This document shows, in pieces, positions 9,828 to 54,414 of a stretch of DNA of 64,000 nt. Numbering within the stretch: position 1 is the stretch's first letter; the number at the start of each line of letters is the position of its first letter. Made by a program: the position numbers and the translations under genes. The stretch spans positions 1 to 64,000 of the forward strand of contig JAJZLY010000002.1 of the NCBI GenBank assembly GCA_021850485.1, read 5' to 3'. The stretch comes from Bacillota bacterium. GTDB taxonomy: Bacteria > Bacillota > Sulfobacillia > JAJZYS01 > JAJZLH01. The notes under the pieces are model-generated. The model was not told the DNA's origin, ran no database searches, and worked only from the letters and a program-made list of their open reading frames with translations.

Positions 9828-10028
9828 TCAGCTCCGCCCTCCTCGCCGTCGCTTCGACATCTGGCTCTGACGAGCCATCTGGGCATACATCTGGGCGTCC
9901 TGGCGGATCACCAGATGCGGACCCCGCCTCAACTCAGCCTTGGTGTCCACGCCGCAGGCAGCCAGTGCTGCCACAATCGCCGCCACCACCTCGTCTGTCA
10001 CTTCGGCCGGCCCGTGACTGCCGGTCAT
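9828..10028 (-). CDS. Small OadG-tail-like subunit of the acyl-CoA carboxylase
   Basis: A 66-residue protein located between carboxyltransferase and biotin carrier, overlapping the former by 4 nt and ending one base before the latter. Its TDEVVAAIVAALAACG stretch followed by LVIRQDAQMYAQMARQ resembles the soluble C-terminal part of OadG/MmdD gamma-delta subunits, which hold the carboxyltransferase and carrier together. The membrane helix of true OadG is absent, so it is presumably cytoplasmic. The assignment rests on position and a short weak similarity; a purely assembly role is inferred. Confidence 0.6.
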   Translation of the reverse strand: MTGSHGPAEVTDEVVAAIVAALAACGVDTKAELRRGPHLVIRQDAQMYAQMARQSQMSKRRRGGRS

Positions 10029-11572
10029 AGCGGGATGTTTCCGTGCTTCTTGGCCGGACGGTCCTCACTCTTCTCGCCCAGCGCCCACAATGCGGCGATC
10101 AAGGCGTGGCGCAATTCGCCAGCGGTCACGACCTGGTCCACATACTGGCGAGCGGCGGCGACATACGGCGACGAGAAGCGATCCCGGTACTCGGCCACGA
10201 GCCGCTTGCGGGTGGCGTCTTGGTCCGCCGCCGCCTCGATCTGAGCCCGAAAGATGATGTTGGCTGCGCCCTCCGGCCCCATCACCGCGATCTCGGCAGT
10301 TGGCAGGGCCAACACCAAATCGGCGCCCAGCGACTTCGAGCACATGGCCAGATAGGCGCCGCCATACGCCTTTCGCAGCACCACCGAGATCTTGGCCACA
10401 CTGGCTTCGCTGTACGCATAGAGCACCTTAGCCCCATGCCGGATGATGCCTCCATACTCCTGGGCGGTGCCTGGCAAGTATCCAGGCGTGTCGATCAGTG
10501 TGAGCAGGGGCAAATTGAAGGCATCGGCAAAACGGACGAATCGGGCTAGCTTGTCAGACGCATCGATGTCCAGACAGCCGGCCAAGATCCTAGGCTGATT
10601 GGCACACCAAGCGACGACCCGCCCGGCCAACCGGCCGAACCCGATCACCATGTTCTGTGCGTAGGCTGGCTGCAGTTCCAAGAACGAATCTTGGTCAGTC
10701 AGGCCCAAGATCAACTGGCGCACGTCATAGGGCTTGTTCGGGTCATCGGGCACCACCTGGTCTAGGCCTTGGACGGCGCCCGCCTCAGGCTCGGCGGCCG
10801 GATGGGCCGGCGGCTGGGCCAGATTGTTCGACGGCAAGTAGCCGAGCAATCGCTTCAAGCCCGCCATCAGGGCGGTCTCATCCACGAAGGTGAGGTGGGC
10901 CACGCCGCTCTTTCGGGCATGCGTCTGGGCGCCACCGAGCGCTTCATGGGAGACGTCCTCCCCGGTCACAGCCTTGATCACCTGCGGGCCCGTGATATAC
11001 ATCTGGCCAATGCCTTCGGCCATCAGCACGAAATCGGTCAACGCCGGCGAGTAGACGGCACCACCGGCGGACGGCCCGACGATGACCGAGATTTGGGGGA
11101 TTACGCCCGAGGCCATCGTGTTGCGGCGAAAGATCTCGCCGTATCCATTGAGCGAGTCGATGCCCTCTTGAATCCGGGCACCGCCGGAATCGGCCATGGC
11201 GACGATCGGGGCCCCCGATTTCAGCGCCAGGTCTTGGACGACATGAACCTTGCGGGCGTGCATCTCACCCAGCGAACCGCCGAGCACAGTGAAATCTTGG
11301 GCAAAGGCATAGACCAGACGGCCGTCCACCTGACCAAAGCCGGTGACCACGCCGTCTCCCGGAGCGTCTGCTTGATCCATACCGAACTCAGCCGAACGGT
11401 GTTCGACGAACATGCCAAGTTCCTGGAATGTTCCTTCGTCGTACAAAGCGGCGAGGCGCTGGCGGGCCGTCCACTTCCCCTGCTGACGCTGCTTGGCTTG
11501 GCGCGCTTCGCCACCGCCGGCCAGCACCCGCTGACGGCGGTGCTCGAGGTCCTTGGTGCGATCGTTATCCAA
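10025..11572 (-). CDS. Acyl-CoA carboxyltransferase (propionyl-CoA carboxylase beta / methylmalonyl-CoA carboxyltransferase)
   Basis: Carboxyltransferase of about 515 residues that moves CO2 between biotin and an acyl-CoA, most likely propionyl-CoA/methylmalonyl-CoA given the neighbours. The N-terminus shows RRQRVLAGGGEARQAKQ and TARQRLAALYDEGTFQE. The two crotonase-like halves contain SGGARIQEGIDSLNGYGEIF and, in the C-terminal half, LIDTPGYLPGTAQEYGGIIRHGAK, which form the oxyanion holes. TTG 11572 aligns with the family start (MLDxxRTKDLEHRR) and overlaps the epimerase stop by 8 nt; a TTG at 11605 is also possible. Gene order with mutase and epimerase supports a role in propionate-type metabolism. 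Confidence 0.9.
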   Translation of the reverse strand: MDNDRTKDLEHRRQRVLAGGGEARQAKQRQQGKWTARQRLAALYDEGTFQELGMFVEHRSAEFGMDQADAPGDGVVTGFGQVDGRLVYAFAQDFTVLGGSLGEMHARKVHVVQDLALKSGAPIVAMADSGGARIQEGIDSLNGYGEIFRRNTMASGVIPQISVIVGPSAGGAVYSPALTDFVLMAEGIGQMYITGPQVIKAVTGEDVSHEALGGAQTHARKSGVAHLTFVDETALMAGLKRLLGYLPSNNLAQPPAHPAAEPEAGAVQGLDQVVPDDPNKPYDVRQLILGLTDQDSFLELQPAYAQNMVIGFGRLAGRVVAWCANQPRILAGCLDIDASDKLARFVRFADAFNLPLLTLIDTPGYLPGTAQEYGGIIRHGAKVLYAYSEASVAKISVVLRKAYGGAYLAMCSKSLGADLVLALPTAEIAVMGPEGAANIIFRAQIEAAADQDATRKRLVAEYRDRFSSPYVAAARQYVDQVVTAGELRHALIAALWALGEKSEDRPAKKHGNIPL

Positions 11573-11984
11573 CGCTGGTTGGTTCCTCCCGTTCGCATAG
11601 CTCAACTAAGACTCCGCCACAGCTGGCTGGATGAAGAAAGGCGATTCGCCGCCCTCCGGCTCCAATCCTGGCCCTAGCATCGATCAGCCGCACGCCTTGG
11701 GTCTGCAAGTGGGCCAAGACAGCGGCCAGATCGTCCACCTCGATGGCCAGGTGGTGCAGCCCCTGTCCCCGCTCGGCCAGGAATCGGCTGATCGGAGAGC
11801 CGTCGCCCTCGGGTTGCAAGATCTCCAACTGGTCCGGGCCAATCCCCACCATCTGCACCCGCACGCCCTGATCGGCAACGGTCTCTTCGTGAGTAACCGC
11901 AAGACCCAAGTGGCCGAGCACGGTCAGCAGGTCTCGACTGTCAGCGGTAGCCACCGCCAGATGGGCGATGCGCGTCGCCTTCAC
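11565..11984 (-). CDS. mce: Methylmalonyl-CoA epimerase
   Basis: A 139-residue vicinal-oxygen-chelate protein that interconverts (S)- and (R)-methylmalonyl-CoA. Two betaalphabetabetabeta modules are visible, with candidate metal ligands H8 (RIAHLAV), H78 (GLHHLAIEV) and E128 (VLVELCE), the positions expected for the family. The GTG start overlaps the mutase stop (GTGA), with GAGGGA upstream. It links the carboxyltransferase product to the mutase encoded directly before it. Confidence 0.9.
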
Positions 11985-13600
11985 GCCGATCCCTCGCGAT
12001 AGACTCCAAACACGGCGCGCAGCCGGTCACACATCTCCTGCACCGTGGCGTACGCCAAAACCGCTTCGGCTAGCGGCTCCAGAAGGTTCCCCCCGCTCTG
12101 CGCCGCCTCTCCCACCCGGGCCAGGGCAGTCTGCACCTGCCCGCTGTCTCGGCCTTTGCGCACGTCCGTCAGAGATGCGATCTGGCGAGCGGCCAAGGTG
12201 CGGTCTTGGCGGTAGATCTCGGCCAATGGCTGCTCGTCCATCTGGTGCACATTCACCCCGACAATTTCCCGCTCGCCCCGCTCCACCTGGCGTTGGAAGG
12301 CATAGGCTGCGTCTTGGATCTCGCGCTGCATGTAGCCCTGGCGAATGGCCTCCACGGCCCCGCCCAACTGCTCCACCCGCGCCAGGTAGTCTCTGGCCTC
12401 TTTCTCCAGCTGATTGGTCAACCGCTCCACCCAGTACGAGCCGGCCAGGGGGTCCACTGTATCTGCGACGCCGGTCTCGCTGGCGATCACCTGTTGGGTC
12501 CTCAGGGCCAGGCGAGCCGAGGCCTCGGTGGGCAGGGCCAGGGCTTCGTCGTAGGCATTGGTGTGCAAGGACTGCGTCCCGCCTAGCACCGCCGACAGGG
12601 CCTGCAGGGCAACACGCACAATGTTCACGTCCGGCTGCTGAGCCGTCAGCGCAGAACCTGCCGTTTGGGCGTGAAAGCGCAACTGCCAGGACTGCGGGCT
12701 TAGTGCGCCCTCTCGCCGCATCAGGTCAGCCCAGATCCGCCGAGCGGCGCGAAATTTGGCAGCTTCTTCAAAGAAGTCGGAGTGGGCGTTGAAAAAAAAG
12801 GACAGCCGCCCCGCAAACTCGTCCAGATCAAGGCCGGAGGCGACGGCCGCCCGAACGTAGGCCAGCCCGTTGGCCAGCGTAAAGGCAATCTCCTGAGGGG
12901 CAGTGGAGCCTGCCTCGCGGATGTGGTAGCCGCTGATTGAGATCGGCGTGAACTGCGGCAGCTGGCGGGCAGCGTAGGCGAACGTATCGGTGACCAGCCG
13001 CATCGACGGCTTGATCGGGAAGATGTAGGTGCCACGGGCCACATATTCCTTGAGAATGTCGTTTTGGATCGTACCCCGGATCCTCTCGGGGGCAACACCC
13101 TGGCCTTTTGCCACCGCCGCGTACATCAGCATCAAGATAGCCGCTGGCGCGTTGATGGTCATCGAGGTGGAGATGCGGTCCAGGGGGATAGAGCGAAACA
13201 ACCGCTCCATATCGGCCAGAGTGTCGATCGCCACACCTACCCGGCCCACCTCGCCGTCGGCCAGCGCATGGTCTGAGTCAAGGCCCATTTGTGTCGGCAG
13301 GTCAAAAGCCACGGATAATCCCATCTGACCCTGGGCCAGCAGATAGCGAAAACGCTGGTTAGTGCCGTCGGCGTCGCCGAATCCGGCATACTGGCGCATG
13401 GTCCACAGCCGCTGACGGTACATCGCTGGATGGATGCCGCGGGTAAAGGGGTATTGCCCGGGGCTCCCCAGGGCCATCTGCGGGTCCCAGCCGGCCAGAT
13501 CCGCCGGGCCCGCCGCGGCCGGTACTTCCATCCCGGACATGGTGGTGAAGGTAGCCTTGCGCGGACTGGCGGCGTTGTCGCCATTTGTCCGCCGGCTCAT
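11981..13600 (-). CDS. mcmA: Methylmalonyl-CoA mutase, catalytic (alpha) subunit without B12 domain
   Basis: The 539-residue TIM-barrel subunit isomerises methylmalonyl-CoA and succinyl-CoA using adenosylcobalamin. Family motifs are [19 protein letters not shown], where the following YAGF carries the substrate-contacting Tyr of true methylmalonyl-CoA mutases, [20 protein letters not shown] and [11 protein letters not shown] with the catalytic His. The C-terminal B12-binding domain of single-chain mutases (DxHxxG) is absent, so a separate small subunit is needed and is not in this window. ATG 13600 has AGGAG 5 nt upstream; the longer open frame overlaps the dehydrogenase gene. GLDSDH replaces the more usual GYDSDH. 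The mutase lies 8 bp after glutamate dehydrogenase, an unusual pairing. Confidence 0.92.
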
Positions 13601-13608
13601 CCGGGCTC

Positions 13609-14871
13609 CTAAGCGATCCAGCCGCGAGCGGCCATCGCTTGGGACAGGCGCTCGATGCCGACCATGAACGCCGCCTTGCGGTAGGTGACTCCATGACGGT
13701 CCGCCATCTCGGCCATGGCGTGGAAGCTTTCCACCATCATGCGCTCTAACTTCTCTTGGACTTCGCTCTCCGGCCAGTAGTAGTTCATCAGATTCTGCAC
13801 CCATTCGAAGTAGGACACCGTGACGCCGCCAGCCGATGCCAAGATGTCTGGGATGACGCGAATGCCGCGGGCGAACAACACGTCGCTGCCCTCTGGCGTA
13901 GTCGGTCCGTTCCCGGCCTCCGCAATCAGCTTGGCCTTGACCGAACGGGCAACCTGAGCGGTGATCTGGCTCTCCAGTGCCGCTGGTACGATGATGTCGA
14001 CCGGCAGGGCAAACAGTTCCTGTGACGTCAGCGGCTGGCTACCTGGGAAACCGGCGACGGTGTGATGCTCGTTTGACCACGCCTGGAGCGCCGCCACGTC
14101 TAAACCGAGGGGGTTGTGGGCGCCACCACGGGCGTCCACCACCGCTGTCACGGTACACCCCATTTCGACCAAAATGCGCGCCGTGTTAGAGCCGACATTG
14201 CCAAACCCCTGCAGGGCCACGGTCGATCCGGCGAGGGAAAAGCCCATCAAATGCGCCGCTTCCCTGATCACCACAGCACAGCCGCGGCCGGTGGCTTCGT
14301 CCCGGCCCTTGGAACCACCGAGCACCAAGGGCTTCCCCGTGATCAAGCCCGGTGTATTCTGTCCCTTTAGGCGGTCGAACTCGTCGAGCATGAAGCCCAT
14401 CAGCTTGGCATTGGTGTTCACATCCGGCGCCGGAATATCCCGCTCCGGCCCGATGATCGGGCTGATCGCCCGGATGTAGCCCCGGGACAACTGCTCTAAC
14501 TCGCGCACCGAAAGCTCTTGGGGATCACAGACAACGCCCCCCTTGGCACCGCCGTAAGGCAGTCCGAGGAGGGCGCATTTAAAGGTCATCCAAATTGACA
14601 GGGCCTTCACTTCGTCAAGCGTGACCTGGGGGTGAAACCTGACTCCGCCCTTGGTGGGGCCGATCACATCTGTGTGCTGGGCCCGATAACCAATAAAGGT
14701 CCGCACATGCCCGTCGTCCATCTGTACGGGGATGGAGCAGACCAACACTCGGCACGGTTCCCTCAGGTATTCAAACACGGCCCGCGGTGCACCGAGCGCC
14801 GCTACCGCCTGCTTGACCTGACCCTGGGCAGTCTGAAACGGGTCAAGCGTCTCGGTAATGACGCTGGCCAT
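13609..14871 (-). CDS. Glutamate dehydrogenase (Glu/Leu/Phe/Val family), first copy
   Basis: NAD(P)-dependent amino-acid dehydrogenase of 420 residues, deaminating glutamate to 2-oxoglutarate. The substrate domain includes KGGVRFHP, the catalytic-Lys region [11 protein letters not shown] and [10 protein letters not shown]; the Rossmann domain has [11 protein letters not shown], and EWVQN closes the active site. Length and motifs fit the GudB/RocG group. ATG 14871 is preceded by AAAGGAGA. It is the first gene of the run with mcm, mce, carboxyltransferase and BCCP, with promoter and palindrome directly upstream. A second, clearly related copy occurs at 35531-36877. Confidence 0.93.
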
Positions 14872-14900
14872 GGACCTACCGTCTCCTTTGGCAAGTTGAT

Positions 14901-14945
14901 CATTCAGGGCACGGGTCGATTATACGCCTGTGCACTGAATGTCAA
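14901..14945 (-). promoter_or_regulatory. Promoter with overlapping inverted repeat before the gdh-mcm operon
   Basis: On the minus strand TTGACA (14945-14940) and TATAAT (14924-14919) are separated by 15 nt, shorter than the usual 17. Flanking the -10 box are CATTCAGGGCAC (14901-14912) and GTGCACTGAATG (14930-14941), inverted-repeat arms that match at 11 of 12 positions. This looks like an operator for a dimeric regulator covering the promoter. Confidence 0.65.
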
Positions 14946-14953
14946 GCCGACCT

Positions 14954-15358
14954 TTAGGATTGCGGCGATGAGCCGTCGGAGTTGGTGCTGGAGTCGTCTG
15001 CGGTCAAATCGTCGACATCCGAGTTGGCAGCCCGCCCCTTGCCCGGACGGCGCAGGTCGTCTCGCGAGACCTTGCCGATCACACTCTGAACCGCGTGGCG
15101 CTGGACTGTGACATCGGTATGGGCGGCAATTTGCACCGTCACGGTGTCGTCCTTGACCTCAACGACCACACCGTGGATTCCGCCAGAGGTGATCACTCGA
15201 TCTCCCCGTTTCAGGCCGCTGACCAAAGTCTGATGCTTTCGCTGCTGCACCGACTGAGGCCGGATCATGAAGTACCACAGCGCCCCGAAAAACAACACAT
15301 AGAGGACAATCAGGTAGGCTGGAAATCCTCCACTGGTAGCGGCAAACACCCTCTGCAA
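14954..15358 (-). CDS. yajC: Preprotein translocase accessory subunit YajC
   Basis: A 134-residue single-span membrane protein. The helix covers about residues 12-32 and is followed by the signature MIRPQSVQQRKHQTLVSGLK, then the beta-rich domain GDRVITSGGIHGVVVEVKDD. The C-terminal 35 residues are an acidic, Ser/Asn-rich extension beyond the core. TTG 15358 has GGGAGGA 7 nt upstream. YajC binds SecDF in the Sec system. In many bacteria it sits beside ruvB-queA-tgt; here rsgI and sigI lie between it and ruvB, and secDF is not next to it. Confidence 0.88.
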   Translation of the reverse strand: MQRVFAATSGGFPAYLIVLYVLFFGALWYFMIRPQSVQQRKHQTLVSGLKRGDRVITSGGIHGVVVEVKDDTVTVQIAAHTDVTVQRHAVQSVIGKVSRDDLRRPGKGRAANSDVDDLTADDSSTNSDGSSPQS

Positions 15359-15404
15359 CCAATCTTCCTCCCTTCATCTTAGGGCCTAGGCCTTCGACAC
15401 CAAA

Positions 15405-15436
15405 CGCCGATCCCCTTGAGGCTTCGGAGATCGGCG
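15405..15436 (-). terminator. Hairpin terminator after rsgI
   Basis: CGCCGATC (15405-15412) and GATCGGCG (15429-15436) form an 8-bp stem with a 16-nt loop between the rsgI stop and yajC, on the minus strand. Only a short T stretch follows, so strength is uncertain. Confidence 0.5.
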
Positions 15437-15463
15437 CTTGTGCGAACTGCTCAGATTGTCGTG

Positions 15464-16645
15464 TTAATTGCCGCTTGAACTACTGCCATCAGTTCCCGAC
15501 TGGGTACCGGTGGTGGCATTCTGCTGACTGCCGCCGGGGAGTAGGCTATTGCCGCCGTCCGTGCTCGATGACTGGGGCAGGGTGAAAGCCCCCCCGGAGT
15601 TGTCGGAGGAGCCCTGACCGGATCCGGAATTCGGCTGGCCGTCGCCTTTACCCTGATGCGCCCCCGACTGTTGGCTATTGCCATCGGCCGCGCGTTGGCC
15701 CTGGCCAGATCCTGCGCCACCACTGCTCGTCCCGGACCCAGGCAGCACGGTGGGCAGGAGATCTTCGACGCCGCTGGGCAGACTGCTCTTTTGGTCCTGT
15801 CCTCCGGACCCGCTGTCTCCTTTTCCCTTCCCGGTCTTGCCTGAGGGGTTGGTAGCGCCGCTGGCTCCCTGCGCCTCTTGTTCGAATTCGCTCTGGTCGC
15901 CGCTCCGGATGATGCCCTGGGTCAGGCCCTGTCCAGCTAGTGTACTGAGCCTCAGCGGCACCGGACTCACCGCCTGCAGCTGCAGGTACACGACGTAGGT
16001 GCCAACCCCCACCCCATGCGCCTTGGCCTGGGCAGCGACTTTGGCGGACGCCGCCAGGACTTCGTGGCTGTCTGCCACATGGGCCGCGCTCAGCGCCTTT
16101 TGCCCAGCCGCTTCCGCCTCAGCCACCTTGTCGCGCAGCTTGATCCCGACCGCCTGGCCCGTCGCCGGGTACACCGTCACCACGTAGGCGATCCAATGTC
16201 CCTGGCCGGCCAGTCCGGCCTGCACCGTGCCTTGGATGATGGCGGTTACCGCCTGCGGCAGACTATCGCCAACCAGGCTGAGGTGACGCAAGACCATGGC
16301 GGCATCATGGTCTTGCGCCTGCACCGAGGTCACGGTGCCGTTACCGGTAACGCCCAGCGTCACGCCGGGGTTGATCTGCACCGAAACGTAGGCGACGGTT
16401 GCGGCATAGGCTCCCGGCAGAGCCCGGCTCATAACGGCGACGACCAGGGCCGCGGCAGCTATGGCGGTGCCCCAGCGCAGAGCCGGCGCATAGACCTCTT
16501 GAGGGACGGTCACCCAGGTTTCCTCGCCAAGGCGATAGTTCTGGTGCTTGACCTTCAGAAAGCGGCCATCTTTGGTCATCACGACAGCGCGCCTGCCCTG
16601 AATCTCGACCACCACGGCCCGCTGTTGCCTGGCGTCTGCTGTCAC
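15464..16645 (-). CDS. rsgI: RsgI-type anti-sigma-I factor with long Gly/Ser-rich extracytoplasmic tail
   Basis: Transmembrane anti-sigma factor of 393 residues that should bind SigI, encoded just upstream. Residues 9-50 match the RsgI N-terminal domain (RAVVVEIQGRRAVVMTKDGRFLKV). One membrane helix spans about 57-77. The outside part starts with the conserved VSVQINPGVTLGV segment and an Ala/Lys-rich helical region, then from about residue 245 becomes low-complexity sequence rich in Gly, Ser, Gln and Asn. In clostridial RsgI proteins this end often carries a sugar-binding domain; none is recognisable here. GTG 16645 is chosen for the AAAGGAGGG upstream. Signal and target are unknown. Confidence 0.85.
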   Translation of the reverse strand: MTADARQQRAVVVEIQGRRAVVMTKDGRFLKVKHQNYRLGEETWVTVPQEVYAPALRWGTAIAAAALVVAVMSRALPGAYAATVAYVSVQINPGVTLGVTGNGTVTSVQAQDHDAAMVLRHLSLVGDSLPQAVTAIIQGTVQAGLAGQGHWIAYVVTVYPATGQAVGIKLRDKVAEAEAAGQKALSAAHVADSHEVLAASAKVAAQAKAHGVGVGTYVVYLQLQAVSPVPLRLSTLAGQGLTQGIIRSGDQSEFEQEAQGASGATNPSGKTGKGKGDSGSGGQDQKSSLPSGVEDLLPTVLPGSGTSSGGAGSGQGQRAADGNSQQSGAHQGKGDGQPNSGSGQGSSDNSGGAFTLPQSSSTDGGNSLLPGGSQQNATTGTQSGTDGSSSSGN

Positions 16646-16691
16646 AGTCTTCGTCCCTCCTTTCCCGGTCTGTGCTGGACCCACTCGAAAC

Positions 16692-35530: not shown

Positions 35531-36877
35531 TCAGTGACCGATGCTCGTCGGCGGGACTGCGGCCACCTCTGGCACCGGCGTGGCCATCGCCTGCAACTGG
35601 TCGGAGGGGATCTCCGGAGCTCGCTTGCGGTGCACCCAGCCCCTGGCCTCGGCAGCCTCTGCCACCCGGTGCACGGCAACCAGGTAGGCAGCCTCGCGCA
35701 TCGACACCTGGTGGGCTTGCTTCATCTTGTAGACCGTGTCGAAGGCCTTCGTCATCATCGCCTTCAGTTTGCGGTCCACCTCTTGCGGCGGCCAGTAATA
35801 GCCCATGGTGTTTTGCACCCACTCGAAGTAGGACACGGTGACACCACCAGCGTTGCACAAGATGTCCGGAATGATGAACACCCCTCGGGAGGCTAGCAGG
35901 TGGTCCCCTTCCGGAGTGGTCGGACCGTTGGCGGCTTCAGCGATGATCTTGGCCTTGACCAGGCGGGCGTTGGCCTCGTCGATCTGGTTTTCCAAGGCTG
36001 CCGGCACCAAAATGTCCACGTCCAAGCCGAACAGGTCTTGGGTGTTGATCTCAGCGCTGTCGGCGAAGCCGTGCACGGTGCGGGTTCGAGCCACATGTTT
36101 GAGCAACTTCGGCACGTCCAACCCGGCCGGATTGTAGGCGCCGCCCCGCACATCCTCAACTGCGACCACCCGCACACCTGCCTGATGCAGATAGTGCGCC
36201 GTGTACGATCCCACGTTGCCGAAGCCCTGGATGGCGGCTGTCGCCCCTCTCACATCTAGGCCGATCCGCCGAGCGGCGTCCAAGATGGTGAAGACCACAC
36301 CACGGCCGGTGGCCGAGGTGCGCCCCTCGCTCCCGCCTAAGACCAGCGGTTTGCCCGTAATGAAGCCAGGCAGATGCTGGCCTCTGACCCGGTCAAACTC
36401 ATCGAGCATCCAACCCATGATCTGTGGCGAGGTGTTGACGTCTGGAGCCGGGATGTCCACCTCCGGCCCCATCATCGGCGCCAGGCGGCGGATATAGCCG
36501 CGAGACAACTCCTCCAGTTCGCGCTCGCTCATCTGCTGGGGATCGCAGATCACGCCACCCTTGGCCCCACCGTAGGGCAACCCCATCACCGCTGTCTTGA
36601 AGGTCATCCACATGGACAGCCCTTTCACTTCGTCGATGCTGACCGACGGGTGAAAGCGAATGCCGCCCTTGGTCGGCCCGGTGGCGTCCGTATGCTGAGC
36701 CCGATAGCCGATATAGGTCTCCAGGCGGCCGTCGTCCATCCGCACCGGCACCGCCACCTCGATCACCCGCATCGGATCCTTAAGCAGGTTGTACACACTG
36801 TCGCCCAGATCAAGGTTGTCTACAGCCAGCCGCAGTTGACCCTGCACGATGTGAAACGGATTGAGCTCATCAGCCAC
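35531..36877 (-). CDS. Glutamate dehydrogenase, second copy
   Basis: A 448-residue paralogue of the enzyme at 13609-14871, with the same [32 protein letters not shown] and EWVQN signatures. It has an additional C-terminal tail of about 30 residues (RKRAPEIPSDQL onward) missing from the first copy. GTG 36877 has AGGAGG 8 nt upstream. It sits between pheT and mutS2, where Bacillus carries zapA and polX-type genes, so it looks inserted into a conserved neighbourhood. Coenzyme preference cannot be told. Confidence 0.92.
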   Translation of the reverse strand: MADELNPFHIVQGQLRLAVDNLDLGDSVYNLLKDPMRVIEVAVPVRMDDGRLETYIGYRAQHTDATGPTKGGIRFHPSVSIDEVKGLSMWMTFKTAVMGLPYGGAKGGVICDPQQMSERELEELSRGYIRRLAPMMGPEVDIPAPDVNTSPQIMGWMLDEFDRVRGQHLPGFITGKPLVLGGSEGRTSATGRGVVFTILDAARRIGLDVRGATAAIQGFGNVGSYTAHYLHQAGVRVVAVEDVRGGAYNPAGLDVPKLLKHVARTRTVHGFADSAEINTQDLFGLDVDILVPAALENQIDEANARLVKAKIIAEAANGPTTPEGDHLLASRGVFIIPDILCNAGGVTVSYFEWVQNTMGYYWPPQEVDRKLKAMMTKAFDTVYKMKQAHQVSMREAAYLVAVHRVAEAAEARGWVHRKRAPEIPSDQLQAMATPVPEVAAVPPTSIGH

Positions 36878-53909: not shown

Positions 53910-53983
53910 TGGGCGGTAGAGGACTTGAACCTCTGACCTCATGCATGTCAAGCATGCGCTCTAACCAGCTGAGCTAACCGCCC
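53910..53983 (-). tRNA. tRNA-Val (GAC)
   Basis: Full cloverleaf: acceptor GGGCGGT, D-arm GCTCAGCTGGTTAGAGC, anticodon loop TTGACAT, T-arm with GTTCAAGTC. CCA is encoded in the genome (53907-53909). Confidence 0.95.
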
Positions 53984-53998
53984 AAACGAGGTGTCTGG

Positions 53999-54070
53999 AG
54001 GCGACGCCCGGATTCGAACCGGGGAATAGAGGATTTGCAGTCCTCTGCCTTACCACTTGGCTACGTCGCC
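53999..54070 (-). tRNA. tRNA-Cys (GCA)
   Basis: Acceptor GGCGACG pairs with CGTCGCC; the anticodon loop is CTGCAAA and the T-loop GTTCGAATC. Encoded CCA follows. Confidence 0.95.
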
Positions 54071-54078
54071 AAATTTGG

Positions 54079-54150
54079 AGCGGGAGACGGGATTCGAACC
54101 CGCGACCCTCGCCTTGGCAAGGCGATGCTCTACCACTGAGCTACTCCCGC
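54079..54150 (-). tRNA. tRNA-Gly (GCC)
   Basis: Acceptor GCGGGAG pairs with CTCCCGC; the anticodon loop is TTGCCAA and the T-loop GTTCGAATC. Encoded CCA follows. Confidence 0.95.
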
Positions 54151-54170
54151 AAACCTGGACTCCGAGATGG

Positions 54171-54243
<73 letters not shown>

Positions 54244-54255
54244 AGGAACTTTTGG

Positions 54256-54329
54256 CGGAGGCGACGGGGCTCGAACCCGTGATCTACGCCGTGACAGGGC
54301 GTTATGTTAACCAACTACACCACGCCTCC
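54256..54329 (-). tRNA. tRNA-Asp (GTC)
   Basis: Acceptor GGAGGCG pairs with CGCCTCC; the anticodon loop is CTGTCAC and the discriminator is G, the identity base for aspartate. Encoded CCA follows. Confidence 0.95.
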
Positions 54330-54342
54330 GACTCCGCCATGG

Positions 54343-54414
54343 TGGGCGAAACAGGGCTCGAACCTGTGACCCCCTCCTTGTAAGGGAGGTGCTCTACCGC
54401 TGAGCTATTCGCCC
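54343..54414 (-). tRNA. tRNA-Val (TAC)
   Basis: Acceptor GGGCGAA pairs with TTCGCCC; the anticodon loop is CTTACAA and the T-loop GTTCGAGCC. Encoded CCA follows. First gene of the six-tRNA run. Confidence 0.95.

Follow-up and report, generated by a model that had tools for sequence, protein, structure and literature searches.

A proposed stem-loop around the gdh-mcm promoter, placed just past yajC and similar in shape in a sister family, may insulate the two transcription units

Introduction

Palindromic operators overlapping the −10 box are a general kind of regulatory site. The locus described here shares with them a symmetry round the −10 box, but the letters of its arms are unconserved in the genus, no second palindrome is found and the span of the symmetry varies.

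For sigG of Bacillus subtilis, complementary sequences are proposed to give a hairpin of more than 20 pairs that forms only in the read-through RNA of the upstream operon and not in RNA from sigG's own promoter (PMC5942855). The resemblance to the present locus is that the hairpin spans the promoter and that the spacer is shortened too (14 nt in sigG, 15 nt here). The sigma factor, the genes and the spacing differ, and the sigG hairpin is proposed to block translation (PMC5942855), whereas here occlusion is unsupported in four of seven relatives. Leader structures are also described for gene e of phage T4, and for soc, 49 and I-TevI (PMC3014915). In gene e the helix contains the Shine-Dalgarno site and/or the start codon and lysozyme synthesis is down 100-fold (PMC3014915), whereas the main stem at our locus stops short of the Shine-Dalgarno site. 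Since the structures of sigG and gene e act on the ribosome site and occlusion is mostly unsupported here, the element is at most partly like them.

GC-rich Streptomyces provide a third comparison: structured transcript ends that lack a U-tract, for which I-shaped terminators or Rho are invoked (PMC8269248). A stable stem-loop after a gene and the want of a strong U-tract are common to those ends and to our locus. Here, however, the element is predicted from sequence, it carries a promoter in its loop, and no rho scores over the cut-off. A limited literature search on promoter/terminator overlap and on gdh-mcm-yajC operons yielded nothing of use.

Here we analyze the promoter and inverted repeat at positions 14901–14945 of the window (the whole 64,000-nucleotide stretch of DNA studied). 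The reading we favor is that gdh-mcm is transcribed from a sigma-A-type promoter of its own, which lies within a stem-loop just past yajC, and that this arrangement most likely separates yajC expression from gdh-mcm expression. We give it a probability of roughly 0.45.

The Locus and Its Inverted Repeat

The genes around the promoter are as follows.

14954–15358, minus strand: yajC, preprotein translocase subunit; co-directional and upstream, ending 12 nt before the distal arm
13609–14871, minus strand: gdh, glutamate dehydrogenase; opens the run, start at 14871
11981–13600, minus strand: mcm, methylmalonyl-CoA mutase catalytic part; a few bases past the gdh stop
11565–11984, minus strand: methylmalonyl-CoA epimerase; downstream in the same run
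10025–11605, minus strand: carboxyltransferase (mmdA-like); downstream in the same run, start not refined

We infer that mcm starts at the ATG at 13600, from its position after the gdh stop and from the congener G002. mcm matches best to the N-terminal catalytic model for methylmalonyl-CoA mutase, and no cobalamin-binding part is matched in this frame. A second gdh copy lies at 35633–36877 (minus strand) and is 59% identical to the one studied.

The promoter itself has these parts.

14945–14940, minus strand: −35 box TTGACA; identical in both congeners
14939–14925, minus strand: spacer of 15 nt; same length in three species, with 10 variable nt followed by an invariant AGGCG
14924–14919, minus strand: −10 box TATAAT; midpoint of the repeat, identical in both congeners
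14927–14941, minus strand: distal (left, upstream) arm; extends over 13 of the 15 nt of the spacer and into 2 nt of the −35 box
14901–14915, minus strand: promoter-proximal (right, downstream) arm; overlies the predicted transcription start
14907–14918, minus strand: GC-rich start region, CGWCCCGTGCCC; 11 of its 12 positions are shared by three species

The original prediction described two 12-nt arms matching at 11 of 12 positions round the TATAAT with their centers 29 nt apart, a −35 box partly within the distal arm, and a 15-nt spacer, all on the promoter of the gdh-mcm gene run. The inverted repeat is real and the description stands in each of these respects: the 12-nt arms lie at 14901–14912 and 14930–14941, the distal one sharing 2 nt with the −35 box, the spacer has the same length in both congeners, and the repeat exceeds chance at this place when compared with shuffled sequence. 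Extended to 15 nt, the arms pair at 13 of 15 positions across a gap of 11 nt, and the center of the repeat (14921) almost coincides with that of the −10 box (14921.5). The hexamers are perfect and kept in the three species, with a spacing of 15 nt against the 16–18 nt of the sigma-A promoter criterion.

When the 96-nt region was shuffled with its dinucleotides preserved, 0 of 200 sequences had an arm pair this good around the −10 box, and none of 200 equaled the fold of that region (z −4.2). With other cuts of the region, equally good folding was seen in 0 of 200 and 1 of 300 shuffles. We also compared the surroundings of the −10 box among the 37 promoter-like sites (TTGACN-N13-21-TANNAT) of the window genome. 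As the reversed pattern yields 12 sites, up to a third of the 37 may be there by chance. The gdh-mcm site ranks first of the 37 in arm match, the runners-up being three sites with 11/15, and first in fold z-score; by raw fold energy four of the other sites are lower. It is also the only one with a 15-nt spacer (17 or 18 nt in 24 of the 37). Repeats of similar grade have nine centers in the 64-kb window, compared with 0–8 (mean 2.6) in ten Markov-simulated windows. Thus the strength of the repeat alone is not exceptional; its register on the promoter is. A further strong inverted repeat (13/15) occupies 15401–15440, between yajC and an open reading frame at 15464–16684. That frame gives no match in NCBIfam, and we take it to be rsgI-like from its position after sigI.

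Conservation within the Genus

Perfect TTGACA-N13-21-TATAAT promoters occur twice per genome in three congeneric genomes, and one of the two is this site, spaced by 15 nt in all. Over the 45-nt stretch, the three species conserve the hexamers, the AGGCG before the −10 box, and CGW plus CCCGTGCCC after it. Identity falls to 2 of 10 over the first ten positions of the spacer and to 0 of 6 in the outer right arm. Judged from these three sequences, the genus does not conserve the letters of the outer arms, and this is one of the two observations that the original prediction named as refuting it. The repeat itself is weaker in G002 (11/15, p 0.04; fold p 0.02), and in G001 neither the repeat (10/15, p 0.29) nor the fold (p 0.17) is significant. 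Pair counting on the three genus sequences was equaled by 105 of 500 shuffles.

These figures are the ground for the view that selection acts on the promoter core alone, namely the hexamers, the 15-nt spacer and the GC-rich discriminator with the start region, so that the outer arms in the window would be a chance palindrome and the hairpin of the sister family a separate matter. Promoters tuned by unstable open complexes offer a comparison. Conservation confined to the core, the nine repeats of similar grade in the window and the lack of a significant repeat in G001 all speak for it. Against it, the repeat is placed almost exactly on the −10 box and ranks first of 37, and the sister family, with its similar arrangement at this locus, would have to be a second coincidence. 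We consider it unlikely.

Recurrence in the Sister Family

A search of the order's 15 genomes located yajC in 13, and in 12 of these 13 (three of family f1, nine of the sister family f4) a TATAAT or TATACT box lies 26–52 nt past the yajC stop. The next gene is gdh in seven genomes (f1 and the f4 genus g4) and an mcm frame without gdh in four genomes of genus g5 (G007 by tblastn only, and with G014 left out). mcm was confirmed after gdh in G001, G002, G008 and G010; G005 and G011 had no mcm match within the short loci searched. In G003, of family f2, yajC is followed by mcm with no −10 box or element of this kind visible by inspection.

The f4 boxes are TATACT and stand between complementary arms just past yajC, with letters that differ from those of the window; arms CGCCCG and CGGGCG flank the box in nine of nine f4 genomes. 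Among the 11 f1 and f4 genomes tested, which are related and exclude G014, folding is better than in shuffles (unadjusted p up to 0.05) in eight (not G001, G006, G012) and the arm pair is better in eight (not G001, G006, G010). The repeat spans 53–55 nt in eight f4 genomes and 46 nt in G005, where the stem is still present.

We aligned seven f4 sequences, omitting G012 and G014, as the element there is the same as in G007. Nine outer pairs are present in all seven. Three adjacent pairs are altered on both sides in a compensatory manner, and the sole departures from Watson-Crick pairing are two G-U pairs. The covariation score exceeds that of 500 of 500 shuffles and of every slid register. The number of paired cells was equaled by 1 of 500 shuffles and that of cells with a two-sided change by 5 of 500; the counts of pairs with a two-sided change (equaled by 77 of 500) and of pair types (110 of 500) are not remarkable. 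As the rows come from two genera, they represent few independent events. The outer six letters of either arm are invariant in the seven sequences.

Neither the hairpin nor its combination with a promoter is a general trait of yajC among the loci read outside the order. Of 110 genomes of the class beyond the order that have a yajC match, 22 loci were tried and 13 read; z falls below −2 in the yajC 3′ region of two. In G015, TTGACA-N18-TATGAT follows yajC with no hairpin (z 0.3), and in G025 a short hairpin follows it with no such box (z −1.1). A general yajC 3′ hairpin, not seen in 11 of the 13 loci read, can be set aside.

A Proposed Hairpin Confined to Read-Through RNA

Transcripts that read through from yajC would hold both arms, enough for a long hairpin to fold. 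Those initiated at the nested promoter are predicted to start in the loop or in the right arm and would have that arm alone; with one arm the hairpin cannot form. Complementary arms do lie on either side of the predicted start, such that RNA from the operon's own promoter would be without the 5′ arm, the repeat in G001 being not significant. In cells where such read-through occurs, the hairpin would mark the read-through RNA, and its candidate effects are 3′-end formation, pausing or cleavage.

A symmetric site in DNA resembles an RNA hairpin, and the material points partly to each. A role in RNA is favored by pairs altered on both sides, by departures to G-U, by a span that can vary and by the want of a second palindrome; a role in DNA is favored by the centering on the −10 box and by the outer six letters, which are constant in f4. 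That the symmetry is retained in a sister family with different letters suggests that the element may be a hairpin separating the operon from its neighbor and not a docking site of a regulator. If so, one stretch of DNA would serve as the end mark of one gene and the start signal of the next, which is testable, conservation would be by shape and not by letters, and the case would be a caution that a palindrome on the −10 box need not be an operator.

A more specific form of the favored reading would make the element an insulator that cuts or stops the read-through RNA with no strong U-tract and leaves the ribosome site exposed. The next operon would start from that same DNA, and the element would be conserved in structure but flexible in sequence. 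In this form we regard the reading as rather unlikely. Three conventional identities were set aside. No terminator-like site is present in 14700–15500, and in nine f4 genomes the eight bases after the stem have at most four T; an intrinsic terminator was rejected for want of a standard U-tract at the element. Under the U-rich rule of the Streptomyces paper (at least three U in eight; PMC8269248), five of the nine f4 tails qualify and none reaches five. Terminator-like sites of the window are clearly above shuffles in one of its three 20-kb parts only (27 vs. 12.0). A Rho-trimmed end was likewise rejected: rho over the curated cut-off was not found in the window genome (G000, 97% complete), which has two weak matches only (40.9 and 23.8 bits), while 8 of 14 control genomes passed the cut-off. 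The window species, a member of an uncultured Bacillota order, seems to lack Rho. Nor does the element match a known RNA family. At gathering scores Rfam finds only tRNAs in the window, six of whose tRNA genes cluster at 53910–54414 (minus strand); in six loci of relatives it gives one match, far below the gathering score, in a locus (L022) that has no TATAAT/TATACT element.

Possible Binding by a Regulator

The alternative that survives best, in line with the original prediction, is that a dimeric or tetrameric regulator binds both half-sites round the −10 box, and either represses or bends the DNA to activate a short-spaced promoter. This is possible, though we think it doubtful. Symmetry centered on the −10 box is what such a site would have, and it is seen again at the promoter in eight of the 11 f1 and f4 genomes tested. 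The invariance of the outer six letters of the f4 arms in seven sequences, and perfect hexamers with an unusual 15-nt spacing in three species, are also in line with it. Against these stand the arm letters, which vary inside the genus, and the failure to find a second palindrome in three genomes. Moreover, at up to two mismatches the f4 block TGCTGTTTCGCCCG occurs less often than its reversed control in 12 of the 15 genomes of the order, as often in one and more often in two. The centers of the arms are 26–29 nt apart in the window species, 44–46 nt in eight f4 genomes and 37 nt in G005, which is a poor fit to one dimer of fixed reach.

The original prediction proposed a search of the genome for the arm. 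The exact arm has no further copy in the window genome, and the palindrome within three mismatches has no other copy in the three genomes. The arm CATTCAGNGCAC, with up to one mismatch, has 17 matches in G000 (two of them the arms themselves) against four for the reversed pattern; at the 15 other places no partner arm (up to two mismatches) lies within 60 nt. An operator of a regulon is therefore unsupported by the arm and palindrome searches and by the half-sites, which are unconserved in congeners. The repeat could still be an operator with a single target. A FadR-type operator, suggested by TGAATGA in the right arm, was also rejected, for its half-sites are oriented wrongly against the FadR consensus.

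The claim of dedicated control survives in part. A repeat on the promoter beyond chance and a short spacer that is kept speak for it; the varying arms and the lack of a second palindrome speak against a sequence-specific operator. A dedicated operator is possible yet weakened, and an effect on the control of glutamate or methylmalonyl-CoA metabolism is not established.

Access to the Ribosome-Binding Site

That the read-through fold hides the gdh ribosome-binding site, so that translation is left to RNA from the nested promoter alone, is very improbable: openness is lower in read-through than in own-promoter RNA at the Shine-Dalgarno site of G000 (0.43 vs. 0.80) and G008 (0.01 vs. 0.39) and at the start codon of G011 (0.08 vs. 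0.72), but in four of seven genomes, the window species included (G000, G002, G005, G010), it is not low compared with shuffled upstream sequence. By the same comparison it is low in G008 (Shine-Dalgarno, fractions 0.04–0.07), in G011 (whole start region, 0.00–0.07) and marginally in G001 (0.05).

Other Promoters and Blocks

The second perfect TTGACA-TATAAT promoter of the three congeners has an 18-nt spacer and a GC-rich inverted repeat in its leader (L048, L049 and L050, around 1500); the gene after it is presumably greA-like. Upstream of mcm, four g5 genomes share a block near GGTCCGTGACAAACTGGTAGCA (L139, L137, L140 and L142), with variation in L140. By eye, it lies roughly 100–140 nt past the TATACT box.
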